IMG/VR virus record: IMGVR_UViG_3300033148_002105
Coordinates: 1 to 32,504 of that record
DNA length: 32,504 bases
From: a virus
Strand: one strand, 5' to 3'
Shown here: piece by piece, positions 1 through 32,504 of the stretch
Layout: every line of letters starts with the position of its first letter
Numbering within the stretch: the stretch's first letter is position 1
Made by a program: the position numbers and the translations under genes
Notes under the pieces: model-generated
What the model saw: only the letters and a program-made list of their open reading frames with translations
Database searches by the model: none
What the model was told of the DNA's origin: nothing

Positions 1-114
1 ACGTCGAAGGCGTTATATCGCCAGTATTTACATTCGGTGAAGGAAAAACTGAAGGTGGTAATTACGTTGAATTTGATAATTACTATACGGGTATTGCAGG
101 GTTTTGTGCAATTG
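1..114 (+). repeat. Terminal overlap, left copy
   Basis: Identical to 32391-32504. The open reading frame continues in frame across the join, which shows that the overlap closes a circular (or circularly permuted) map of 32,390 bp. It is most simply an assembly overlap. A true short direct terminal repeat cannot be excluded from sequence alone. Confidence 0.95.
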
Positions 115-837: not shown

Positions 838-851
838 CGTATTAATAATAT
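837..851 (+). promoter_or_regulatory. Late-type ACGTATTA element
   Basis: ACGTATTA followed by ATAATAT, directly upstream of the endonuclease remnant. A near copy lies at 936, so the remnant is bracketed by two elements in direct orientation. Confidence 0.45.
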
Positions 852-935: not shown

Positions 936-950
936 ACGTATTAATATAAA
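936..950 (+). promoter_or_regulatory. Late-type ACGTATTA element
   Basis: ACGTATTAATATAAA, ending about 17 bp before the ATG of the fibre gene at 968. It belongs to the dispersed late-type set. Confidence 0.45.
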
Positions 951-2923: not shown

Positions 2924-3472
2924 TTAATTTATTTTATTTAGTATAGAGCGTTTCACTTTCATATATTTTAAACGATTGTCAATATTCTTTATTTGGAAGA
3001 TATAATTATTCCTTTTATAATCATCTCCACCTTCTTCATGAGCTAGTTTTCTAAGTTCCATTTTAGACTTATTTAACGTAGCTATTATAAATTTTTCATC
3101 CTCATTAAATTCAACAATGCCTTTTATATAGTGAATAGATTTATTGTAATCAAATGTACGTGAATTATGTGTTTTATAACCTCTTGATTGAGTTAGCATT
3201 ATATAATACCCTTCATAATATTTCATCTCAGCTAAATCATTAGTGACTTTCAATACTTTAAATTCCCATCTATAAGGATTCAATGTAATGCTATCGTCTA
3301 ATGAAAAGTTAGAGTGATGGCTTTGTTCAAACATATTTGATTCTGCATTATAGTTATATCTACTTGACATTGATTTAGATGAGCCTATGTAAGCCTCTTT
3401 TAAAGTCTTGTTGTATATTATATAGACACTTGGCTTATCTGTTAATTCCGATTTGATTTTAATATTCTTCAT
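2924..3472 (-). CDS. GIY-YIG-fold protein (putative homing-type endonuclease)
   Basis: 182 aa. VYIIY at residues 16-20 and YIG at 28-30 match the two halves of the GIY-YIG signature. R38, E87 (in YYEGYYI) and N103 (GYKTHN) fall where the family's catalytic Arg, Glu and Asn lie. The C-terminal 75 residues are helical and Lys-rich, likely DNA-binding. It is only distantly similar to the two GIY-YIG proteins at 7426 and 12056 and lacks their NUMOD-like repeats. An early-type element (3482-3502) lies 9 bp upstream of the ATG. The last codons KIN and the TGA stop are followed directly by the next early-type element. Confidence 0.7.
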   Translation of the reverse strand: MKNIKIKSELTDKPSVYIIYNKTLKEAYIGSSKSMSSRYNYNAESNMFEQSHHSNFSLDDSITLNPYRWEFKVLKVTNDLAEMKYYEGYYIMLTQSRGYKTHNSRTFDYNKSIHYIKGIVEFNEDEKFIIATLNKSKMELRKLAHEEGGDDYKRNNYIFQIKNIDNRLKYMKVKRSILNKIN

Positions 3473-3481
3473 TTTATCGTT

Positions 3482-3502
3482 CTTTTATATTATATATTCA
3501 AT
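3482..3502 (-). promoter_or_regulatory. Early-type element
   Basis: Minus-strand ATTGAATATATAATATAAAA, about 10 bp before the ATG at 3472. It is almost identical to the elements at 2905, 3703 and 3875. Confidence 0.55.
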
Positions 3503-3894: not shown

Positions 3895-4404
3895 CTTTTT
3901 TATTTTTTTACAAATGCTCAATCTTTTTTTATAATAACTTTTCCAAATAACGCCTCCTATGCTATCTACTACTACCCCTCTTGATGTAGAATGCATTATT
4001 TTATTATCGCCAATGTAGATAGCCACATGGCTTATATAGGATGTATTTCTTCCACTCGAAGATCTTTTAAAAAACAATAAATCCCCTTTGACAATGCTAT
4101 CAAAGGGGACTGACTCGCCAATCTTAGACTGGCTTCTCGAATTTCTCGGTATGGATATTCCATTATCCTTATATATATGTTGTGTCAAAGAAGAACAATC
4201 TATACCATTAGATGTAGTACCTCCATATTCATATTTGGTGCCAATGTATTTAGAATTGATTTTAAAGTGCATTTCGTTTGATTTAAGAGCCTTTAAGGAA
4301 CGTTTAGCATAATGTGCTGGAAATAATAAAGGTTGCTTAAACGGCGTTAAATAGCTAGAATTAAATGTGAGGAAACTTAAAAGGATTAATAATTTAGTTT
4401 TCAT
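3877..4404 (-). CDS. NlpC/P60 cell-wall hydrolase (endolysin)
   Basis: 175 aa. The N-terminus (MKTKLLILLSFLTFNSS) looks like a signal peptide or signal anchor, so export by the host pathway is possible. The NlpC/P60 domain spans about residues 52-160: YIGTKYEYGG, then C70 in GIDCSS (nucleophile), H126 in ISHVAIYIG and H138 in MHSTS complete the papain-like triad. The family cleaves peptide bonds in the peptidoglycan stem. It heads the minus-strand block with membrane proteins further downstream, as expected of a lysis module. Upstream it carries a late-type CGTATTA (4411-4417) and box c of the inverted-repeat module, consistent with late expression. Confidence 0.85.
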   Translation of the reverse strand: MKTKLLILLSFLTFNSSYLTPFKQPLLFPAHYAKRSLKALKSNEMHFKINSKYIGTKYEYGGTTSNGIDCSSLTQHIYKDNGISIPRNSRSQSKIGESVPFDSIVKGDLLFFKRSSSGRNTSYISHVAIYIGDNKIMHSTSRGVVVDSIGGVIWKSYYKKRLSICKKIKKIEYII

Positions 4405-4410
4405 AGTTAA

Positions 4411-4448
4411 TAATACGAAGTGATAGAATGGTACAGGGATAATGTGTT
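4411..4448 (-). promoter_or_regulatory. Late-type control region of the endolysin (CGTATTA plus box c)
   Basis: On the minus strand the 22-bp box (4448-4427, AACACATT-ATCCCT-GTACCATT) is followed after 9 bp by CGTATTA (4417-4411), just before the ATG at 4404. Confidence 0.5.
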
Positions 4449-5087: not shown

Positions 5088-5666
5088 CTAAAACAGTGCA
5101 TTTGGAATGTTTGAAAGCGTTTTATGCTCTATGTTACTATCTTTTAAGAACTCTAACAGTATTTCATTGCCATCTATCTTATCTGCTATTTTCATATTTA
5201 TTTTAATTAAGTATCTGTTTAATGTTTGTCTACTTATTTTCAAGTACGTTTGCATTTCCATTTTAGATTTCTTTTCAACATATATCTTTTGAATTAAGAA
5301 TTGTTCCACTCTGGTCAATTCAGTTATTATATTTTTCAATTGGTATTTATAGTCTGTTTCTATTTCGTAATCCGTATCGAAGTGAGCATCATGTATATAG
5401 CCATTCTTACGTGAATAATCAGTATTTCTTTTCTTACGAGATTTCTCCCGTCTCATGTAATCTATTATATAATTCTTGCATATAGTTGTAAAGTAAGAAT
5501 GCCTTTTAGATAAATCTTTACTAGAATCGTAATTTCCTTTTGTCACTATTTTAATATACACTTCATTTATAATATCATCTGTCATGTTTACAAAGTGTGC
5601 GAATTTAGATTTTATAAATGGCGGCAGTATCGCTTGTAGTTTGTCATATATTTCAATTTCAGTCAT
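5088..5666 (-). CDS. Phage sigma-70-family (ECF-like) factor
   Basis: 192 aa from ATG at 5666; an in-frame TTG lies 6 bp further up. Numbering counts that TTG as 1. Residues about 31-83 fit region 2 (DDIINEVYIKIV ... SYFTTICKNYIIDYMRREKSRKK, the core-binding and -10 contact helices). Residues about 115-165 fit region 4 (LTRVEQFLIQKIYVEKKS then SRQTLNRYLIKINMKI, a helix-turn-helix). A short acidic linker joins them and no region 3 is visible. It should bind host RNA polymerase core and redirect it. Its own upstream region has an early-type element. Divergent from it, the terminase operon has a late-type element, so it is a good candidate activator of the late genes. Confidence 0.75.
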   Translation of the reverse strand: MTEIEIYDKLQAILPPFIKSKFAHFVNMTDDIINEVYIKIVTKGNYDSSKDLSKRHSYFTTICKNYIIDYMRREKSRKKRNTDYSRKNGYIHDAHFDTDYEIETDYKYQLKNIITELTRVEQFLIQKIYVEKKSKMEMQTYLKISRQTLNRYLIKINMKIADKIDGNEILLEFLKDSNIEHKTLSNIPNALF

Positions 5667-5676
5667 AATCAATCCT

Positions 5677-5695
5677 TTTTAAGTTATATATTCAC
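5677..5695 (-). promoter_or_regulatory. Early-type element (variant) for the sigma-like gene
   Basis: Minus-strand GTGAATATATAACTTAAAA, about 10 bp before the ATG at 5666. It differs from the others by a C in the second half. Confidence 0.45.
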
Positions 5696-5717
5696 ATTAT
5701 TAAAAATATTTATCATA

Positions 5718-5737
5718 ACGTAATACGTATATAATAA
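5718..5737 (+). promoter_or_regulatory. Late-type element for the terminase operon
   Basis: ACGTAATACGTATATAATAA, 20 bp before the terminase small-subunit ATG. It has a doubled ACGTA core. Confidence 0.45.
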
Positions 5738-5757: not shown

Positions 5758-6135
5758 ATGACAAAAAAGCAAAAAAAGACGTTATTCTTGGCTAATTACG
5801 CCAAATCGTTTAATAAGTCGGCATCATTAGAAAATGTGATGAGTTGGGGTTCTTACTATATATATTTAAAAGACGATAAAGATTTTGCAGAAGAAATAGA
5901 GCGATTAGAACTTGCGATGGTGCATACAGCCGAATCCAAGTACTACGAGCTATTGCATTCAGAAGATGAGAACATAGTATTTAAAGTAGCTAAAGAGGTA
6001 ATAAACAGTAAATTAGGTAAGAAACATTCAAACTTAATAACAGGCGAAAACGGCTTAGTTAGTGTTGCTGGAGATAAAACTATAACATTCAAATTTGGCA
6101 ACGATGTTGAAATAGAAGAAGAAGACGAAGAATAA
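5758..6135 (+). CDS. terS: Terminase small subunit
   Basis: 125 aa. A helical N-terminal region (KTLFLANYAKSFNKSASLENVMSWGSYYIY) has the helix-turn-helix-like pattern of small terminases. A central oligomerisation helix (AEEIERLELAMVHTAESKYYELL) and a short, very acidic C-terminus (EIEEEDEE) follow. The product should recognise phage DNA and hand it to the ATPase subunit for packaging. It begins the late operon and lies 9 bp before the large-subunit gene. Assignment rests on this position plus fold-like pattern; sequence motifs in the family are weak. Confidence 0.8.
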   Translation: MTKKQKKTLFLANYAKSFNKSASLENVMSWGSYYIYLKDDKDFAEEIERLELAMVHTAESKYYELLHSEDENIVFKVAKEVINSKLGKKHSNLITGENGLVSVAGDKTITFKFGNDVEIEEEDEE

Positions 6136-6144
6136 TACTAAACT

Positions 6145-7389
6145 ATGAATTTTAAAGGGCTTACGTTACATAACAGGCAGAAAGATATAGCAGATGACAT
6201 AATCAAATCATCTGCTAAATACTTTATAGTAAATGCTAGTAGGCAATCGGGTAAATCGGTATTAATGAGCCAGTTACTACTTTACTTTGGTATAAATAAT
6301 TCTGACAAAGACATAGTATATATAACGCCTACTTATTCATTAGGTAAGAAGTTATTCAAAAATATATTAAAAGCAATACGTCCATCTGGAGTTGTTAAGC
6401 GCCATAACTTATCCAACTTAATAATTGAATTGATAAATGGTAGCGAGATAACATTTCTATCTGCTGAGAGTTATGACAATATTAGGGGATTGAGTTTGGA
6501 TTACATATTTCTTGACGAGTTTGCATTTTTCAAAGAGGACGCGTGGGCTTCTATTAAGCCAACTGTTGCTGCTAGAAAACATGCTAAAGTTGTGATTAGC
6601 TCTACGCCTAAGGGTAAGAACTTGTTCCATGAATTAGCTAAGTTGGGCGAGTCTGAAAACGTTCGTTATGAGTATTATTACATGCACTACAGCGACAATC
6701 CTAACTACGACATAGCAGAGGTACTTGATGCAAAAAAAGTGCTCCCAGACGCAATATATAGACAAGAGTACGAAGCGGAATTCATCGATGATGGCGGAAC
6801 AGTATTTAAAGGAGTCAGAGATATTCAAACGATTACTGAATGGAGCGAGCCAGAACAAAGAGTTAAATATTTTGCAGGCATTGATGTTGGTAAAAAGGAT
6901 TCTACAGTATTGACAATTATGGACTATTCAGGAAAGATAGTATTTATATACAGCATTAATAATCAAAGTTATGAGAAGATTATAAGTGGTCTGCTTGAAG
7001 TATTGAACAAGTATAACCCATTGACATACATAGAAGTTAATTCAGTTGGAGACGTGTTATTTGATATGTTATCGAAAGAATATAGAGGCTTGGTAGCTTG
7101 GCATAATACAAACAAAGTAAAAACAGATATGATAGAGTTGCTTGTTAAAAATATAAGCATAAAAGATATAAGTTTGCCAACAGCTGAATTATTTCCAACA
7201 TTAGACTTTGAATTAAGTGTATTTACATTTGAATATAATCCTAAAACTAGAACTATACGATATGCTGCTAGTGGAAGTTTTCATGATGATACCGTTATAA
7301 GCTTAGGACTTGCTAATCTTTGTAGAGAAGAAAATAAGTTTGTAGGCAATAGAATAAGTTATAAACCTGTTAATAAATTCGGATATTAA
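6145..7389 (+). CDS. terL: Terminase large subunit (packaging ATPase and nuclease)
   Basis: 414 aa, usual for the family. Walker A is ASRQSGKS (residues 31-38, K37) and Walker B is YIFLDE (120-125, D124/E125). A coupling motif SSTPKG lies at 152-157. The C-terminal RNase H-like nuclease has D247 (GIDVGKKDS), E297 (YIEVNS) and D381/D382 (FHDD). The protein drives DNA into the prohead and cuts concatemers, bound to the portal. The gene is complete. A homing endonuclease gene with its own upstream element follows it. Confidence 0.95.
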   Translation: MNFKGLTLHNRQKDIADDIIKSSAKYFIVNASRQSGKSVLMSQLLLYFGINNSDKDIVYITPTYSLGKKLFKNILKAIRPSGVVKRHNLSNLIIELINGSEITFLSAESYDNIRGLSLDYIFLDEFAFFKEDAWASIKPTVAARKHAKVVISSTPKGKNLFHELAKLGESENVRYEYYYMHYSDNPNYDIAEVLDAKKVLPDAIYRQEYEAEFIDDGGTVFKGVRDIQTITEWSEPEQRVKYFAGIDVGKKDSTVLTIMDYSGKIVFIYSINNQSYEKIISGLLEVLNKYNPLTYIEVNSVGDVLFDMLSKEYRGLVAWHNTNKVKTDMIELLVKNISIKDISLPTAELFPTLDFELSVFTFEYNPKTRTIRYAASGSFHDDTVISLGLANLCREENKFVGNRISYKPVNKFGY

Positions 7390-7402: not shown

Positions 7403-7421
7403 CTGAATATATAATATAAAA
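7403..7421 (+). promoter_or_regulatory. Early-type element for the GIY-YIG gene
   Basis: CTGAATATATAATATAAAA on the plus strand, 4 bp before the ATG at 7426. It gives the endonuclease an expression signal unlike that of the flanking late genes. Confidence 0.55.
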
Positions 7422-7425
7422 AACA

Positions 7426-8088
7426 ATGCGAACAGGTATAATATATATAGCAACTAATACCATTAATAATAAGGTTTATATAGGTCAAACTATTCAAGGA
7501 TTACAAAAAAGGAAGTCGCAGCATATTAAAAATGCAGTATCTAAATGTGACAATATGTATTTCCATAAAGCAATACGTAAATATGGTAAGGATAATTTTA
7601 AATGGGAAGTATTAGTAGACTGTCCTATTAGTGATTTAAATGATCAAGAAATATATTGGATTAAATACTGGGATAGTTTTGGCAAAAGGGGTTATAACTC
7701 AACTATTGGCGGAAGTTTAGGAGCGAATGGTTTCAAAGGTAGAAAGCATAGTATTGAAACAAAGCTATTGCTAAGCATTCGATCAAAAGAAGACGGTTAT
7801 GGTATGAGAGGAAAAAAACACTCTGCGCATTCAAGAAAAAAAATGTCAATACAGAAAAAAGGGAAGTTGCTATATAATGCTCATAAACAAAAGTTATCTA
7901 AGATTCGCCAAGGTATTAATAATCCTAATGCAGATAGCACTATTTATACATTTTATAACAAAGAATTAGATATTATAGAAAAATGCACTAGACTGGAATT
8001 GCAAGACAAATACGGGGTAAAATCACTAGGAGGATTATTTGCGACAAGAGTTCAAAAAACAGCTTATGGATGGAGTTTGCTTTATTAA
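7426..8088 (+). CDS. GIY-YIG homing endonuclease
   Basis: 220 aa. The GIY-YIG nuclease domain covers residues 4-95: GIIYIATN, VYIG (17-20), R29/H33, E75 in DQEIYWIKYW and N91 in GYNST. Two NUMOD3-like DNA-binding repeats follow (GFKGRKHSIETK at about 102-113, GMRGKKHSAHSRKKMS at 126-141). A C-terminal segment (about 172-220, TIYTFYNKE ... GLFATRVQKTAYGWSL) probably also contacts DNA. Such proteins cut intron- or gene-less alleles and spread themselves; this one is free-standing between terL and the connector gene. It has its own early-type element. Its last codons merge with the late control region at 8079. Confidence 0.9.
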   Translation: MRTGIIYIATNTINNKVYIGQTIQGLQKRKSQHIKNAVSKCDNMYFHKAIRKYGKDNFKWEVLVDCPISDLNDQEIYWIKYWDSFGKRGYNSTIGGSLGANGFKGRKHSIETKLLLSIRSKEDGYGMRGKKHSAHSRKKMSIQKKGKLLYNAHKQKLSKIRQGINNPNADSTIYTFYNKELDIIEKCTRLELQDKYGVKSLGGLFATRVQKTAYGWSLLY

Positions 8089-8140
8089 TATCTACAAACA
8101 CATAATCCCTGTACCATTATCAATACGTATTACTATAAAC
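8079..8140 (+). promoter_or_regulatory. Late control region, half-copy of the inverted-repeat module (box a plus ACGTATTA)
   Basis: From CTTTATTAATATCTACAAAC (8079) onward the sequence matches the right half of the inverted-repeat module at 19271-19325 almost base for base. It includes the 22-bp box (8097-8118, AACACATA-ATCCCT-GTACCATT) and ACGTATTA (8125-8132). It precedes the connector gene at 8154. The left half of the module is absent, replaced by the end of the GIY-YIG gene. Confidence 0.65.
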
Positions 8141-8153
8141 TAAATTAAACAAT

Positions 8154-8558
8154 ATGAACTTTCTAACAATCGAGGATCTTACTTCTTTAATGAAGAAAAA
8201 CGTTATTAATGATCTGACTGAAAATAATTATACATTGCTTAATCAACTAGAAGAAATGTCAGTTGGTCAAATTGATGCTAGCATAGGTTTCAAATTTGCA
8301 ACTCATGCAGCTTTACAGGCCCGTAATCCTTATTTGATTATGTTGCTAATTGATGTCATGGTTTATCATTTATCAAGCCGTATGACGCACGTATCGATGC
8401 AAGAAATTGTAGATGCTAGATATGAAGATGCAAAAGCTACATTGCTTAACATTTCATCTGGTAAAATAATTCCTAATCTTCCACTCAATGCAGAGCCTGA
8501 AGAGTTTAGGTCTCAAAATTTATATATAACAGAGCCAAAACTTACGAGCTCGTATTAA
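8154..8558 (+). CDS. Head-tail connector protein (DUF1320/gp36-like)
   Basis: 134 aa, all-helical. It has the pattern of DUF1320 connectors: an N-terminal FLTIEDLTSLM helix, a middle LIMLLIDVMVYHLSSRMT helix, then RYEDAKATLLNISSGK and a Pro-rich tail. Such proteins form a ring between portal and tail. The order connector-portal differs from the usual Mu order (portal first), but both belong to one late unit beginning at the control region just upstream. The family call is by pattern, not search. Confidence 0.7.
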   Translation: MNFLTIEDLTSLMKKNVINDLTENNYTLLNQLEEMSVGQIDASIGFKFATHAALQARNPYLIMLLIDVMVYHLSSRMTHVSMQEIVDARYEDAKATLLNISSGKIIPNLPLNAEPEEFRSQNLYITEPKLTSSY

Positions 8559-8576: not shown

Positions 8577-9815
8577 ATGGCATTAAATATATTAAAACTA
8601 TTCAACAAGAAAGAAGTTGAGGCTATTCAAATAAGTGTTCCTAATAACAAATTGACTAAGAACTTTTTTGAATTCGATCACAAATATGATTATAGAATAA
8701 CTGCTACAACTAAAAAATGGAGAGATAGTCTTTCATATGCTGAGGATTGGGAATCACCTAATCGTTCGGAACTATTAAAGCTTTATAAAGAATTAATACT
8801 TGACGCTACTATTCAAAACGCTGTAGATTTAAGAACACAACGACTATTGAGCGTCCCATTTAGCATTGTTAATAAGACTGACAAAGTTAATGAAAAGTCT
8901 CAAAAGATATTTGAATCGTACTGGTTTGAAAAGTATTTAAAATTCGCTATGGAATCTGTTTTTTATGGTCATTCTTTAATACAAATAGATGGCATCGTTA
9001 ATGGTAATGTTTCAGATGTTACATTGATACCTAGAGAGAATGTTGTGCCTGAATTCGGTACATTTAAAAAGAATGCTTATGTGCAAGCTACGGACAGCAC
9101 TGATTATATGAAGCCTAAAGTTTATAAATGGTTATGTGAAGTATATCATACGCGTAGATACTTAGGATTACTTAATGCTACTGCTCCATACCAAATAGCT
9201 AAAAAGACTGCAATGGTTGCGTGGTCTCAATTTGTAGAAGTATTTGGTTTGCCAATGGTAATAGGTAGAACTAATTCTAACATTGAGTCTGAGAAGTTGT
9301 CATTGCAAAAATTCTTACAAGACCTAAGTATCAATAGCAGAGCTGTTTTAGATAAGCAGACTGAATTGGAATTTAAAGAAACGACTCGTTCAGATGTATA
9401 TCAAGTATATAAAGAATTAATGACTGCTATGAACAATGAGTTAAATTCGTTAATACTTGGAGGTACTGAATTGACAAGCGGAGGTTCTGGTGGAAGTGAA
9501 GCAAGAGCAACTGTTCATCAAGCACAGAGTAATTATAAGACTGCTGCTGATTTAAGATACATTAAAAATAACATAAACTCAGTACTAATACCTAAGTTAC
9601 AAGCATTGAAAGTATTGCCTAAGGGTATAGAATTTAAATTTAATACTGATGAACTATTGACAATGGCAGAACGTATTGAAATAGATAAAGTGATACTAAG
9701 TAAATATAACCTAAGTAAAGACTATATCGAAAGAGTATATAAAGTAGAACTTGCTGAAGACGAACCCGTTATAGACCAAATGGAAGATGCTGTAAAAGAC
9801 GATGAAAATAAATAA
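8577..9815 (+). CDS. Portal protein (DUF935, Mu gp29-like)
   Basis: 412 aa. The order of segments is that of DUF935 portals: ELILDATIQNAVDLRTQRL (helix), SVFYGHSLIQID, LIPRENVVPEFG, YQIAKKTAMVAWSQFVEVFG, GLPMVIGRTN, then LILGGTELTSGGSGGSEA and a C-terminal LIPKLQAL region. The portal forms the dodecameric ring at one capsid vertex through which terL pumps DNA. Start at 8577 after an A-rich leader; the 3' end overlaps the next gene by 14 bp, implying translational coupling. Confidence 0.88.
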   Translation: MALNILKLFNKKEVEAIQISVPNNKLTKNFFEFDHKYDYRITATTKKWRDSLSYAEDWESPNRSELLKLYKELILDATIQNAVDLRTQRLLSVPFSIVNKTDKVNEKSQKIFESYWFEKYLKFAMESVFYGHSLIQIDGIVNGNVSDVTLIPRENVVPEFGTFKKNAYVQATDSTDYMKPKVYKWLCEVYHTRRYLGLLNATAPYQIAKKTAMVAWSQFVEVFGLPMVIGRTNSNIESEKLSLQKFLQDLSINSRAVLDKQTELEFKETTRSDVYQVYKELMTAMNNELNSLILGGTELTSGGSGGSEARATVHQAQSNYKTAADLRYIKNNINSVLIPKLQALKVLPKGIEFKFNTDELLTMAERIEIDKVILSKYNLSKDYIERVYKVELAEDEPVIDQMEDAVKDDENK

Positions 9816-10287: not shown

Positions 10288-10863
10288 ATGATAGCCAGCA
10301 TATATACGACTCTCCAGTATTTCATTACTGAGAGAATACCAGAAATAGCTTACATATCGCTATACAATGATCAATTTAATAACCATGACAGTAATAGAGC
10401 ACTACCAATGCCAGCTGTTTTGATAGAGATATTGCCTATAAACTTTGAAAACATGTTGCAACAGGTTCAATATGCAAAAGTGGATGTCAATATTCATTTC
10501 GGTACGGAGATTTATAATGGTTTCGATAGAGACGATGCTATGCAAGATTCAAGTTTAGAACATTTGGCACTATTAGATAAGCTTTATATAGGTTTAAATC
10601 GTGTCAATTCTGAAATGCTGCCCGATGAAATGAAGAACGAGTTATATATGCAAGGAGGATTTAGACGTAATAGTTTAAGTTTGAATAGATATAACTCTGT
10701 AATACATCATTCTGTTATTAACGGTAGCTTTATGATTTATGATCTCTCGGCAATTAAAACATATAACGAAATCGAGCTTAGTGATATTAAACTCAAAACA
10801 TGGTACGAACCGAATCCGCCATTTGAAGGAGAGCCACAAGCAAAAGAAATAGATATAAAATAG
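10288..10863 (+). CDS. Probable tail terminator/neck protein
   Basis: 191 aa, alpha/beta. The layout fits tail terminator (gp37/DUF3168-like) proteins: an N-terminal helix (MIASIYTTLQYFITERI), PMPAVLIEILPINFENM, then VDVNIHFGTEIYNG, LALLDKLYIGLN and a C-terminal beta strand pair (HHSVINGSFMIYDL). The gene follows the gpG-like gene by 3 bp. The acidic, Pro-rich tail is of unknown use. The TAG stop overlaps the first bases of the tRNA-Met gene. Function is inferred from position and pattern. Confidence 0.65.
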   Translation: MIASIYTTLQYFITERIPEIAYISLYNDQFNNHDSNRALPMPAVLIEILPINFENMLQQVQYAKVDVNIHFGTEIYNGFDRDDAMQDSSLEHLALLDKLYIGLNRVNSEMLPDEMKNELYMQGGFRRNSLSLNRYNSVIHHSVINGSFMIYDLSAIKTYNEIELSDIKLKTWYEPNPPFEGEPQAKEIDIK

Positions 10864-10935
10864 CGGGATAGTAGCAGTTGGTAGCTCGCGAGCCTCATAA
10901 GCTCGAGGTCGGCGGTTCGAGTCCGCCTCCCGCTA
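10862..10935 (+). tRNA. tRNA-Met (CAT anticodon)
   Basis: Acceptor AGCGGGA (10862-10868) pairs with TCCCGCT (10928-10934), discriminator A. The anticodon arm is CGAGC-CTCATAA-GCTCG with anticodon CAT. The T arm is GGCGG-TTCGAGT-CCGCC. The D arm AGTTGGTA is present but its stem is short with one mismatch. CCA is not encoded. The gene shares its first two bases with the stop codon of the preceding CDS. Confidence 0.9.
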
Positions 10936-10941
10936 CAATAT

Positions 10942-11013
10942 GCTAATATAGTTTAATTGGTAAAACCACAGATTTGTAACCTGTAGTCACTGGTTCGATC
11001 CCAGTTATTAGCT
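10942..11013 (+). tRNA. tRNA-Thr (TGT anticodon)
   Basis: Acceptor GCTAATA (10942-10948) pairs with TATTAGC (11006-11012). The anticodon loop TTTGTAA gives anticodon TGT (codon ACA). The T arm is ACTGG-TTCGATC-CCAGT. The anticodon stem has one mismatch at the loop end. It lies 6 bp after tRNA-Met, probably in one transcript with it. Confidence 0.85.
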
Positions 11014-11040
11014 CAATTTTGGACACTTTTTTGTGTCGTA

Positions 11041-11056
11041 ACGTATTATAAATAAT
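11041..11056 (+). promoter_or_regulatory. Late-type ACGTATTA element
   Basis: ACGTATTATAAATAAT, 15 bp before the protease-scaffold ATG. A small hairpin (GACAC-T6-GTGTC, 11022-11037) lies just upstream and may mark the end of the tRNA transcript. Confidence 0.5.
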
Positions 11057-12049: not shown

Positions 12050-12055
12050 GAAGTG

Positions 12056-12721
12056 ATGAAAAGCGGTGTTATATATAAAGTTACTAATATTATCAATGGC
12101 AAAGTGTATGTTGGTCAGACTAGGAACTCAATGGAATACCGCATGAAACAACACTTGCGATCTAAAGACAATGTATATTTTCACAGAGCCATCCGTAAAT
12201 ACGGAGAAGATAGTTTTAAATGGGAAGTTCTAGTAGAATGCCCTATTAAAGACTTAAATGCTCAAGAAAGTTATTGGATTAAACATTGGAATAGTTTTAG
12301 TGCAGAAGGATATAACTTGACTAATGGAGGCGATGTTACAGAAATAAGCTATGCTACAAAAATTAAAATAAGCAACTCTTTGAAAAACCATAAAGTAACT
12401 GACATCACAAGAAATAAAATAAGTATAGCTAAGACATGCACAAAGGCGTCCGATGCCACTAAAGTGAAACTATCGAAATGTAACTTAGGAGATAAAAATC
12501 CAATGTATGGCAAAACGTTTTCAACTGAACACAGACGAAAAATGTCAAACATGCAATGGAAAAAGGACTATACTATATACACGTTCTATAATAAAAAATT
12601 AAATATCACAGAAAATTGTGATAGGTACGAATTACAAACAAAATACAAAATAAATATAAACAATCTATTCAGAACAATAAAGCCTAGAAAAACTTGTAAT
12701 GGATGGGAGTTAATAAATTAA
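12056..12721 (+). CDS. GIY-YIG homing endonuclease
   Basis: 221 aa from ATG 12056; the GTG at 12053 is in frame, but ATG aligns with the starts of the other two copies (MKSGV / MRTGI / MKTGI). GIY-YIG domain in residues 4-92: GVIYKVTN, KVYVGQT, R29/H33, E71 in AQESYWIKHW and N87 in GYNLT. A NUMOD3-like repeat is visible as NPMYGKTFSTEHRRKMS. The C-terminus (TIYTFYNKKLNI ... TCNGWELIN) matches the copy at 7426, so the two are paralogues. It lies between protease-scaffold and major capsid genes. The start is 6 bp after the preceding stop and no early-type element is seen, so it is expressed from the late operon. Confidence 0.9.
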   Translation: MKSGVIYKVTNIINGKVYVGQTRNSMEYRMKQHLRSKDNVYFHRAIRKYGEDSFKWEVLVECPIKDLNAQESYWIKHWNSFSAEGYNLTNGGDVTEISYATKIKISNSLKNHKVTDITRNKISIAKTCTKASDATKVKLSKCNLGDKNPMYGKTFSTEHRRKMSNMQWKKDYTIYTFYNKKLNITENCDRYELQTKYKININNLFRTIKPRKTCNGWELIN

Positions 12722-15416: not shown

Positions 15417-15432
15417 ACGTATTATAGTAAAC
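15417..15432 (+). promoter_or_regulatory. Late-type ACGTATTA element
   Basis: ACGTATTATAGTAAAC immediately after the sheath terminator and about 40 bp before the gene at 15473. This placement (terminator then element) is what a fresh promoter would need. Confidence 0.5.
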
Positions 15433-17523: not shown

Positions 17524-17545
17524 AATGGTACTCGGACTATGTGTT
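17524..17545 (-). promoter_or_regulatory. 22-bp box (minus-strand copy f)
   Basis: Reads AACACATA-GTCCGA-GTACCATT on the minus strand. It lies between the polymerase stop codon and its terminator with no ACGTATTA and no gene to drive on that strand, which argues against a simple promoter role for this copy. Confidence 0.45.
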
Positions 17546-17606: not shown

Positions 17607-18890
17607 CTATTTCAATTCATAATCTTTATATCCGTGCTTTTCAAATTCTGCAATAACGGTTTCTAACATGAAGTCTTTGTCACTACTCTTAACATATAAA
17701 CTATCGTGACAGCTTAGACACCATTCAGTAGAAGATACATTTTTATAAGCTTCAATGAATATGGTTGCTTCATCTTTTTGCAACGTTAAAGGAAGATATT
17801 TTTTGTCAGTGCTTTTTATTTTATTAATCTCTTTATATACAGAAGGATATGCTTGCTTAAATACATTCAATAGAGCAGCTCCGCCATTTATACCTTTATA
17901 CATTACTTTTAAGAACTCAGGTTTGATATCATCTCTACTATCGAAGTATTCAATGCTTTTTTCACAAGATACTACTTTGCCGTGTTCTCTTTTCAATTTA
18001 TAACTTTGGAATGCATTATGACCATTCAGCGATACATATTCTTTTAATAATTCTGTATAAATATCTTTCTTAGTAACATCTTCATAGAACGTTTTAATAT
18101 TTTCATCTTCGCCGTTAGTTTTTAATAAGCGAGAAGCTAGGAAATAAGGCTGTGACGACTTTAAATCCGATTGGACTAGTGATTCTCCATTCACATAGCA
18201 AAAGCCTCTTAATTCTCTTTTAATAAGGTTAAACGTATGGAATATTCTGCCAGTTTTATTGTCTTCTACTATCACCCATTTCTTATCGTTCATATCATTT
18301 ATCATTCGTTGATATGTGTTATATTTGTGAGTGGCGAATGTGATGTCTGTATCGAAATAACCTTCTGTTACTAAGTTAGATAGCCATTTTATTGCAGATG
18401 GATAATCGAATTCTATTTGGTTTAACATTTTATATGCGCCCCAATGTTTTCTATCAAACTCGCTTCTATTGTATGAGCTTTTAATTTTCTTATATAAAGT
18501 TGAATTATTAGTCATTATGTATTCTTGGATAGTAAGCTCTTCTATTTCAACATCGTTTGCGAAATTCAATGCTATCCAATAGTCTTTTGATTTTTGCCCA
18601 ACTATATAACTATTATCAGTTTGAATTATACCTTTTTCTATAGATATGTCGATTATAGATTTGTAATGCCTCCAGCCTAATAAATTAGATATATACGATG
18701 CTTTTAATCTGGCTTTAATGTTTCTAAATGTTTTCTCTGGGTGAGACGTTGATTGCCTTTCTATTAGCTCATAGAACATATAGAATTTCTCTCTAGGAAG
18801 TTTCTTTGAATAATCGTTTTGAAGTAATTCATCCACTTTATTAATGAATGCTCTGCTGAATCGTGTTAATTTGTAATTTCTTTTTGACAT
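17607..18890 (-). CDS. Minimal family-A/T7-like single-subunit polymerase
   Basis: 427 aa. Polymerase motifs are visible in order: motif A with D242 in LVQSDLKSSQPYFLASR (242-250 core), preceded by RIFHTFNLIKRELRGF; a motif B-like segment KVMYKGINGG (328-337) followed by LNVFKQAYPSVYKEI; motif C CHDSLYV with H395/D396. The two aspartates D242 and D396 would bind the catalytic metals. The N-terminal 220 residues are helical; no 3'-5' exonuclease motifs are seen. T7 RNA polymerase also has HDS at motif C, so DNA synthesis, priming or RNA synthesis are all possible. It is the only polymerase in the genome. A structured leader and an early-type element lie upstream. Confidence 0.7.
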   Translation of the reverse strand: MSKRNYKLTRFSRAFINKVDELLQNDYSKKLPREKFYMFYELIERQSTSHPEKTFRNIKARLKASYISNLLGWRHYKSIIDISIEKGIIQTDNSYIVGQKSKDYWIALNFANDVEIEELTIQEYIMTNNSTLYKKIKSSYNRSEFDRKHWGAYKMLNQIEFDYPSAIKWLSNLVTEGYFDTDITFATHKYNTYQRMINDMNDKKWVIVEDNKTGRIFHTFNLIKRELRGFCYVNGESLVQSDLKSSQPYFLASRLLKTNGEDENIKTFYEDVTKKDIYTELLKEYVSLNGHNAFQSYKLKREHGKVVSCEKSIEYFDSRDDIKPEFLKVMYKGINGGAALLNVFKQAYPSVYKEINKIKSTDKKYLPLTLQKDEATIFIEAYKNVSSTEWCLSCHDSLYVKSSDKDFMLETVIAEFEKHGYKDYELK

Positions 18891-19026: not shown

Positions 19027-19034
19027 TAATACGT
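19027..19034 (-). promoter_or_regulatory. Late-type ACGTATTA element, minus strand
   Basis: Minus-strand ACGTATTA followed by TAAGTATA, 4 bp upstream of the structured leader. Together with the early-type element at 19061 it suggests that the polymerase gene can be read in both phases. Confidence 0.4.
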
Positions 19035-19098: not shown

Positions 19099-19310
19099 TT
19101 TAGCAAAGTTTTTTAATTTATTTTTCATGTTGTTTTGTCCATAAACTGCACCCTCTAAAACACGCTGTAACGCACGGCATCATTGAGCCACAGCGTGTTT
19201 TTATTTTAAAAGCGGGTGATCCATAAGAAGATAATGTTACTTTATACTTATATATAGTTATACTTAGTTAAACTTTATTAATATCTACAAACACATAATC
19301 CCTATACCAT
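19099..19310 (+). repeat. Long inverted repeat, copy 2 (bidirectional control region)
   Basis: Matches the reverse complement of 4428-4644 at about 95%. The early-type side faces the polymerase and the late-type side faces the RusA gene, mirroring copy 1 (4691 gene and endolysin). This copy lacks 6 bp in the second of the two direct repeats (TATACTTA...). Confidence 0.85.
19157..19201 (+). terminator. Hairpin within the inverted repeat, terminator-like
   Basis: AAAACACGCTGT (19157-19168) pairs with ACAGCGTGTTTT (19190-19201), 12 bp. The 21-nt loop contains an inner GGC...GCC pairing, and the tail is T-rich (TATTTT). In copy 1 the inner pairing is kept (GGT...GCC) while the outer stem is partly lost. 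It may block read-through between the divergent halves. Confidence 0.55.
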
Positions 19311-19331
19311 TGCCAATCCGTATTACTGTTA
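19290..19331 (+). promoter_or_regulatory. Late-type control region of RusA (box b plus CGTATTA)
   Basis: Box AACACATA-ATCCCT-ATACCATT (19290-19311), then after 7 bp CGTATTACTGTTATA (19319 on), about 25 bp before the RusA ATG. Confidence 0.5.
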
Positions 19332-19759: not shown

Positions 19760-19802
19760 AACACATATATCAGGTACCATTTTAAAGCGTATTACTATTA
19801 TA
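19760..19802 (+). promoter_or_regulatory. Late-type control region of the tape measure gene (box d plus CGTATTA)
   Basis: Box AACACATA-TATCAG-GTACCATT (19760-19781), then after 6 bp CGTATTACTATTATA (19788-19802). The spacing matches the copies at 8097 and 19290. Confidence 0.55.
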
Positions 19803-25732: not shown

Positions 25733-25747
25733 ACGTATTAATAATAT
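25733..25747 (+). promoter_or_regulatory. Late-type ACGTATTA element
   Basis: ACGTATTAATAATAT, about 15 bp before the ATG at 25763. It opens the fibre gene group. Confidence 0.5.
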
Positions 25748-30947: not shown

Positions 30948-31072
30948 TGGCTACTAGAAATAATATTAATTGGAATAAGTTTGTTAGCCATATCTCTTGG
31001 GCTATATTTTTACTCTACAATTTGAAACGTATCAGACGTAAACGTATTATAATAAAGAAATTTAAGAAATGA
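30947..31072 (+). CDS. 41-aa membrane peptide with a very basic tail
   Basis: Starts at an ATG overlapping the previous stop (TAATG) and stops in TGA overlapping the next ATG (ATGA). Both overlaps favour a real, coupled gene. Residues about 12-25 (FVSHISWAIFLLYN) are hydrophobic; the tail (KRIRRKRIIIKKFKK) is almost all Lys/Arg/Ile. A late-type ACGTATTA lies within it, so some of its codons may be shaped by that element. A pinholin-like or anchoring role is speculation. Confidence 0.45.
   Translation: MATRNNINWNKFVSHISWAIFLLYNLKRIRRKRIIIKKFKK
31042..31055 (+). promoter_or_regulatory. Late-type ACGTATTA element
   Basis: ACGTATTATAATAA, about 14 bp before the ATG at 31069, embedded in the small upstream ORF. 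Confidence 0.4.
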
Positions 31073-31684: not shown

Positions 31685-32504
31685 ATGGCAAGATCAGTTG
31701 ACACTCTGTTTCAATTAATGCAAACAGAAAAGAATACAATGTCTTATATAAAAGATAAGTTGACAAATCCAGATGGAACAACAACTATTAAGACAGAGCA
31801 AGAGTTACTTACTGAATTACAATCGACTAACCCAGTAGGTATTTGGAGACTTTGGCAGTTTTTAACAGCTGTTGAAATGAATTTCCTTGAACAAAATTGG
31901 GATGAGATTAGAACTGAAATTGAAGATATTAAAGCTAGTGCATTCATTGGTGGTAAAGAATGGTGGGTAGAAAAATGTGAGGAATGGCAAAACGGAGACT
32001 TTGTAATAATTGATCCAGATAACTATTCTATTCATTATGATATTATAGATGAAAATAAACAATTAATTAAACATGCAACTATTAGTGAAATTGGAGGCAA
32101 AGTAATATTAAAAGTTCAAAAAGAATATGAAACACCTATTAATTTATTATCAACAGCTGAATTAGAATCATTTACAAGTTATGTTAATAAAGTAAAATTT
32201 GCAGGAACAAGAATAAATATATGGAACTTTAATCCTGATTTATTACATTTGGAATACACAATATATTACGATCCATTAATAAATATATCTACTATAACAA
32301 CAAATGTAGAAAAAGTCATTGGGGATTATATACAAAACTTACCATTTGATAGTGAATTTAGTAAAACAGAATTGACAAACTTATTACAAGACGTCGAAGG
32401 CGTTATATCGCCAGTATTTACATTCGGTGAAGGAAAAACTGAAGGTGGTAATTACGTTGAATTTGATAATTACTATACGGGTATTGCAGGGTTTTGTGCA
32501 ATTG
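31685..32504 (+). CDS. Baseplate wedge (J-like) protein, 5' part
   Basis: Begins MARSVDTLFQLMQTEKNTMS and runs off the end of the window; it continues in frame at 1-167 for 290 aa in total. NPVGIWRLWQFLTAVEMNFL and KEWWVEKCEEWQNGDF match a protein repeatedly found in Bacteroidota phage baseplate modules. The later part (GTRINIWNFNPDLLHLEY, then VEKVIGDYIQNLPFDSEF) resembles the C-terminal region of J/gp47 wedge proteins. It would form the baseplate ring with the gp25-like protein. It is shorter than typical J (about 380 aa). No other J candidate exists in the genome. Confidence 0.7.
   Translation, partial: MARSVDTLFQLMQTEKNTMSYIKDKLTNPDGTTTIKTEQELLTELQSTNPVGIWRLWQFLTAVEMNFLEQNWDEIRTEIEDIKASAFIGGKEWWVEKCEEWQNGDFVIIDPDNYSIHYDIIDENKQLIKHATISEIGGKVILKVQKEYETPINLLSTAELESFTSYVNKVKFAGTRINIWNFNPDLLHLEYTIYYDPLINISTITTNVEKVIGDYIQNLPFDSEFSKTELTNLLQDVEGVISPVFTFGEGKTEGGNYVEFDNYYTGIAGFCAI
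32391..32504 (+). repeat. Terminal overlap, right copy
   Basis: Identical to 1-114; see that entry. Features in this stretch should be counted once. Confidence 0.95.

Follow-up and report, generated by a model that had tools for sequence, protein, structure and literature searches.

The sigma factor locus and the phage genome

Between positions 5088 and 5737 of the window (the whole viral contig that was analysed, 32,504 nucleotides), the minus strand encodes an ECF-like sigma factor of 192 aa, which reads from an ATG at 5666 down to 5088 and is divergent from terS (5758) and terL (6145) (Table 1). The plus strand of this interval contains many stops and no ORF. A sequence-only reading of the same DNA had placed a sigma factor with regions 2 and 4 next to the terminase genes. 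Both the protein and its neighbourhood hold, with the qualification that the gene lies on the minus strand and points away from terS and terL.

A 114-bp direct repeat is found at both ends of the window (1–114 and 32391–32504) and the last gene continues in frame over the join of the contig ends; the genome is thus probably complete and circularly permuted, with a size of about 32.4 kb. The genes are those of a contractile-tailed phage: a T4-type TerL, a Mu-type portal, a gp36-like adaptor, a prohead protease, a DUF2586/tail sheath protein, a tape measure protein and a baseplate hub. The portal is about 25–30% identical to Flavobacterium phage portals, and the records that match it are phages of Bacteroides, Flavobacterium, Porphyromonas and Winogradskyella. 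These matches make a member of the Bacteroidota very likely as the host. In the papers searched we found no transcription programme for Bacteroidota myophages of this kind.

Several other features of the genome recur in its relatives (contigs designated L followed by a number). Homing-type endonuclease genes (GIY-YIG/NUMOD) are interspersed in the window (2924–3472 minus, 7426–8088 plus and 12053–12721 plus) and in L038 (18648, 19599 and 20894, all minus). Phage tRNA genes lie directly upstream of the prohead protease unit, both in the window (10862–11014; Met, Thr) and in L031 (150–459; Gln, Met, Val, Thr). A conserved gene of about 430–470 codons is found in the window (17607–18890 minus), L009 (3701–5113), L038 (16461–17783) and L047 (59–1381); the window copy has no significant Pfam or PHROG match, and its sequence reads like that of a putative DNA polymerase relative.

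Table 1. Positions of the sigma factor gene, the terminase genes and the class L and class E elements in the window
Feature	Coordinates	Strand	Context or basis
Two-domain (regions 2 and 4) ECF-like sigma factor, 192 aa	5088..5666	-	Profiles, AF2 fold, orthologs beside terS
Putative terminase small subunit, terS	5758..6135	+	Position; weak PHROG match
T4-type terminase large subunit, terL	6145..7389	+	Profile matches
Class L (CGTATTA)	838..844	+	Immediately after gene 175–837; 130 nt upstream of 968
Class L	937..943	+	Upstream of gene 968
Class L	4411..4417	-	6 nt upstream of NlpC/P60 endolysin gene (4404 minus)
Variant class L, ACGTATATAAT	5725..5735	+	Upstream of terS (5758); overlaps minus-strand CGTATTA at 5721–5727
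Class L	8126..8132	+	Upstream of head–tail adaptor (Mu gp36-like) gene 8154
Class L	8551..8557	+	Within 3' end of adaptor gene 8154–8558; 26 nt upstream of portal gene 8577; same place in L009 and L032
Class L	11042..11048	+	Between two tRNA genes and prohead protease gene 11072
Class L	15418..15424	+	After hairpin; 55 nt upstream of gene 15473
Class L	19027..19033	-	143 nt upstream of polymerase-like gene 18890..17607; also upstream of L009 copy of this gene
Class L	19319..19325	+	Upstream of gene 19356 (weak RusA match)
Class L	19788..19794	+	Upstream of tape measure gene 19821
Class L	25734..25740	+	Upstream of gene 25763
Class L	31043..31049	+	Upstream of gene 31069
Class E (early-type), near form ATATATAACTTA	5680..5691	-	Upstream of sigma gene
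Class E, ATATATAATATAA	4667..4679	+	Upstream of ORF 4691
Class E	7407..7419	+	Upstream of GIY-YIG gene 7426
Class E	3485..3497	-	Upstream of GIY-YIG gene 3472 minus

A two-domain sigma factor

ECF-type two-domain sigma factors have regions 2 and 4, lack regions 1.1 and 3 and measure about 170–200 aa. The window factor has this make-up, as seen from its matches to NCBIfam TIGR02937 (43.3 bits, cut-off 42.9, residues 26–162) and Pfam Sigma70_ECF (22.0 bits, cut-off 21.1) and from separate region-2 and region-4 matches of its model. The TIGR02937 cut-off is also passed by three of four syntenic orthologs (53.7, 47.8 and 51.9 bits), the L045 protein scoring 38.7. The best PHROG matches are the sigma factor families 1190 and 1740 (E = 3e-4 and 8.5e-4), followed by a marginal match to the late sigma family phrog_234 (E = 0.019); a tblastn search of the phage collection with the factor returned no record at E ≤ 0.01.

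The AlphaFold2 model (pLDDT 68) shows two helical domains, one resembling region 2 and the other region 4, and sigma factors lead its Foldseek and VIA-align matches. Fitted as single domains, residues 103–165 superpose on SigK at 1.4 Å and residues 1–80 on SigL at 3.1 Å, the mutual placement of the two domains in the model being unreliable. When the sigma alignment was compared as a profile with PDB sequences, no match was significant, so that the fold comparison depends on this medium-confidence model.

A recurrent element upstream of packaging, head, tail and lysis genes

The heptamer CGTATTA, the core of the element that we call class L, occurs 15 times in the window, compared with 5.9 expected and a maximum of 12 in 100 shuffles of the whole window. 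Twelve of the copies are intergenic and three coding, while intergenic DNA makes up only 10% of the window; in 2000 simulations of this intergenic sequence with a first-order Markov model, the mean was 0.98 and the maximum 5. The prediction that the motif would be commoner upstream of genes than inside them is thus borne out. The longer form ACGTATTA is found eight times in intergenic DNA (0.43 expected). A blind k-mer scan of the window ranks the element near the top, with seven of ten ACGTATTA copies before starts (p = 1.4e-8, uncorrected across k-mers), and in L032 it ranks first (5/5 before starts, p = 9e-8, likewise uncorrected).

Eleven CGTATTA copies lie at most 60 nt upstream of a start codon, in the orientation of the gene and mostly at a spacing of 19–30 nt. 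All nine sites named in the sequence-only reading (before 968, 8154, 11072, 15473, 19356, 19821, 25763, 31069 and, on the minus strand, 4404) are present, as is the variant before 5758 (ACGTATATAAT at 5725), and copies at 838, 8551 and 19033 (minus) add to that list. The downstream genes that can be named mainly serve packaging, head, tail and lysis, and are late genes by function. The same reading had several copies directly following terminators. This is true of those at 15418 and 11042, and does not extend to a rule: hairpins with z < -1.5 precede 9 of 31 elements and 6 of 23 other genes, no clear excess, and we rejected a general terminator–element coupling as unsupported.

Alignment of 32 sites from six contigs gives C-N2-A-ACGTA[T/A][T/A]A[T]-A--A(A), in which CGTA is invariant within the set. 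Further upstream we found neither a conserved column (by column information) nor an enriched flexible k-mer at -40 to -8 (28–32 sites); since nothing rises above background upstream of -4, there is no detectable -35 box. ECF-type promoters combine an AAC-type -35 box with a -10 such as CGTA or CGTC 16–17 nt downstream, whereas the element has the -10 core CGTA and no conserved -35. The ECF label therefore suits the protein and not the promoters. A Bacteroidota housekeeping promoter was also tried as the identity of the element and rejected, no TAnnTTTG promoter lying near starts in the window.

A repeated block, AAACACATAATCCCTGTACCATT, is located immediately upstream of four class L copies (8094–8132 plus, 19287–19325 plus, 4451–4411 minus and 19775–19794 plus, each range including the element). 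A fifth, diverged block at 17530 (minus) precedes a terminator-like hairpin and has no CGTATTA.

A second, early-type element

A different element, class E (ATATATAATATAA), precedes the sigma gene in a near form as well as other putatively early genes. Additional sites are found at 2919, 3717, 3889 and 19074 (all minus). The polymerase-like gene has a class E copy about 40 nt upstream of its class L copy, and two class E copies have AACTTTGCTAAAA in common further upstream. Class E is also located upstream of the L009 sigma gene and of the L047 operon that contains a 124-aa ORF (see below); its spelling is identical in the window and the L047 contig, two sequences with different class L spellings. 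Class E looks like the first step of a cascade, and the simplest circuit would lead from class E to the sigma factor and from there to class L. Class E, in place of class L, could also be the target of the phage factor.

The sigma gene and the spelling of the element in related phages

Queries with TerL, capsid, sheath and portal brought up the relatives, which are few in number and for the most part fragmentary contigs. The sigma factor alone as a query found none, and none turned up among genome contigs (prophages). Five close relatives have the terS region on their contig, and in four of them an orthologous sigma gene stands beside terS: L009, L010 and L038, with 34–41% identity to the window factor, and L045, recognized by hhalign (E = 4e-24). 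Its orientation at terS differs among the four. No sigma was seen in L030–L033, which are fragments without the terS region, so that its absence there is uninformative.

Orthologous late genes keep the element at the same place, with lineage-specific spellings (ACGTATTATAATAAA, ACGTATAATTAATAAA, ACGTAAAATAATAAA and CAGTATAAT). L009, L032 and L031 have ACGTATTATAATAAA; L010 has ACGTATAATTAATAAA upstream of terS, the adaptor, the protease and the homologue of gene 15473; L038 has ACGTAAAAT upstream of the last three and ACGTATAAT upstream of terS; L033 and L045 have a CAGTATAAT-like form at few sites. Among 14 shared genes, all four element-bearing genes of L010 fall within the five of the window (p = 0.005), and the same is true of the four of L038 (p = 0.005); the overlap for L032 is four of five (p = 0.013). 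CGTATTA occurs before starts 11, 4, 3 and 4 times in the window, L009, L031 and L032, respectively, and not once in L010 or the L038 and L047 contigs. Conversely, CGTATAAT is before starts at 4/4 copies in L010, CGTAAAAT at 5/9 in the L038 contig, and AGTATAAT-type strings take this position in L033 and L045. In each genome its own lineage spelling predominates before starts, a near block-diagonal pattern for variants whose definition in part followed inspection of the sequences. In L031 a class L copy lies immediately upstream of a four-tRNA array, which fits a role in transcription and not in translation.

More distant TerL relatives (L012–L014) have sigma-like genes near terS/terL and no clear element of the class L kind. 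One of them, L013, has two sigma genes, a SigA-like one of 267 aa (5902–6705, 116 bits) and a second, small and ECF-like (8643–9164), along with clear Bacteroidota housekeeping promoters (TTTG-N18-21-TATATTTG). The cultured Flavobacterium phages FPSV-S1 and lotta8-1, which have related portals, gave no TIGR02937 match, and the strings that a blind scan of their genomes returned were largely A-rich, with no CGTA-type element among them.

A lineage with a different gene in the sigma slot

L047, a contig of 31,981 bp whose TerL is 53% identical to that of the window, contains no two-domain sigma factor. The slot directly before terS is occupied by a 124-aa ORF (3901–4275), whose region-2 part matches TIGR02985 at E = 0.065 and TIGR02937 at E = 0.12, with no significant hhalign match; the top matches of its fold model (pLDDT 64) are mostly sigma region-2 chains, at E of at least 0.5. 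It is possibly a region-2-only protein that replaces the sigma factor. The element is respelled in this contig as TGTAAACTA, with all seven copies at most 60 nt upstream of starts and CGTATTA before no gene. An apparent match between L105 and the L047 protein was dismissed as spurious: it is antisense to a 234-aa ORF beside a 1504-aa tail-like ORF.

Two more distant TerL relatives, L061 (739–1059) and L088 (8877–9224), encode proteins of 106–115 aa that match TIGR02937 in region 2 only (E = 6e-11 and 1e-10). The proteins of 106–124 aa in these three phages with T4-type TerL are possible minimal sigma factors. It is tempting, though we hold it somewhat less probable than its opposite, to see the phage group as a natural series of diverging sigma/promoter pairs at one locus and one set of late units, in which L047, and perhaps L061 and L088, are reduced to a region-2-only sigma of 106–124 aa, accompanied in L047 by a changed spelling. 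If true, region 2 alone would suffice for promoter choice with a Bacteroidota polymerase.

Which factor reads the element?

The sequence-only reading had the phage factor read the element to start late transcription. We propose, with a probability of roughly 0.77, that it acts as a late sigma factor which starts the late units from single -10-like elements lacking a -35 box. This is the best-supported model: sigma orthologs occupy the same locus, the elements stand at orthologous starts, their copies change spelling together by lineage, and the spelling switches in the lineage with a replaced sigma gene. Factor and element are linked by correlation, through this co-occurrence and coordinated change. 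In the proposed mechanism, the sigma factor would be produced early or in mid infection from a class E promoter (ATATATAATATAA-like), bind the host core RNA polymerase and guide the enzyme to the single elements (consensus C-N2-AACGTATTATAATAAA, mostly 19–30 nt upstream of start codons), where the packaging, head, tail and lysis units would start. The GTA-centred element would be recognized by region 2; given the lack of a conserved -35 box, the probable role of region 4 is to hold the core polymerase and not to read DNA. With starts 6–8 nt downstream of the element, the spacing of phiEco32 gp36, most leaders in the window would measure about 11–24 nt. One window copy (endolysin, 6 nt) and three L047 copies are situated only 5–7 nt upstream of the start codon and would require leaderless mRNAs. 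Also counting against the proposal are the retention of region 4 without a -35 box and the three CGTATTA copies in coding DNA.

We may wonder whether a host sigma factor, be it the housekeeping or an alternative one, uses the element as its promoter instead, the phage sigma serving class E or something else. The element is AT-rich with TATAAT-like strings (TATTATAATA), and class E also stands upstream of the sigma gene, which would make autoregulation possible. We nevertheless consider this unlikely. The element has no Bacteroidota housekeeping -7 box (TAnnTTTG), although relatives do have the promoter TTTG-N18-21-TAnnTTTG: it precedes starts in L013, and the L038 and L047 contigs have one such copy each, on the minus strand. 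Moreover, for an element read by the host, neither a joint respelling within every close lineage of phages nor a switch upon replacement of the sigma gene would be expected, and the constancy of class E between the window and the L047 contig, where class L is different, also speaks against it.

The fairly fixed spacing to start codons and the missing -35 partner would equally suit a site bound by a phage regulator of another kind (activator or repressor), or a signal that acts in the RNA (processing or translation), independent of the sigma factor. Yet copies at 55, 130 and 143 nt from starts and the one ahead of a tRNA array do not fit a translation signal, the element is one-sided and co-oriented with the downstream gene, and its CGTA core is an ECF-type -10, so we regard such a site as improbable. 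Hardly credible is an origin of the copies by duplication of intergenic segments (mobile repeats) rather than by selection: a near-identical upstream block of about 45 nt does accompany three window copies, and in diverged form a fourth, but the remaining copies have only the element in common, and only the element is conserved in the orthologous copies of relatives.

If the phage sigma factor does recognize the element, the sequence alone would reveal the late units of these phages, which only metagenomes have so far shown, and a small factor that has region 4 could function, or could have evolved to function, with no -35 box. Since several lineages offer factors with matching elements, swapping the two would test how region 2 sets -10 specificity.

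Comparison with known systems

T4 gp55 is a late sigma factor with single-element late promoters (TATAAATA). The window is similar in its single element, some copies of which read TATTATAAATA, but its factor has only a marginal match to the PHROG late sigma family (phrog_234, E = 0.019).

Bacillus subtilis SigW is an ECF factor whose promoters (TGAAAC-16/17-CGTA[T]) have a -10, CGTA(T), identical to the start of the element (PMC2375139). However, the TGAAAC-like -35 is absent in the window, and SigW governs a stress regulon, not a phage. The phage 7-11 factor SaPh711_gp47 has a region 4, as in the window, and Winogradskyella sigma24 is among its closest homologues (PMC8948821). The late promoters of this phage (GTAAtg-16-aCTA) occupy genome positions similar to those of phiEco32 with a different sequence, a case of kept position and changed spelling comparable to ours (PMC8948821); they are bipartite, with an upstream element, whereas one element was found in the window.

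phiEco32 gp36 is a small phage sigma factor that reads a single element, tAATGTAtA, with starts 6–8 nt downstream (PMC8948821). As in the window, one short -10-like element without a -35 precedes the late units and early genes have another promoter type (PMC8948821, PMC4281155). The differences are that phiEco32-like phages are C3 podophages of enterobacteria, that their element is not that of the window and that gp36 has no recognizable region 4, which the window factor has. Judged by position and sequence, the window has what characterizes the gp36 type, a phage sigma factor and single-element promoters before late units. The sigma/late-element system is real and belongs to a kind described from phiEco32-like phages; its occurrence in a group of Bacteroidota-type myophages is new, and the spellings that differ by lineage form an informative series.
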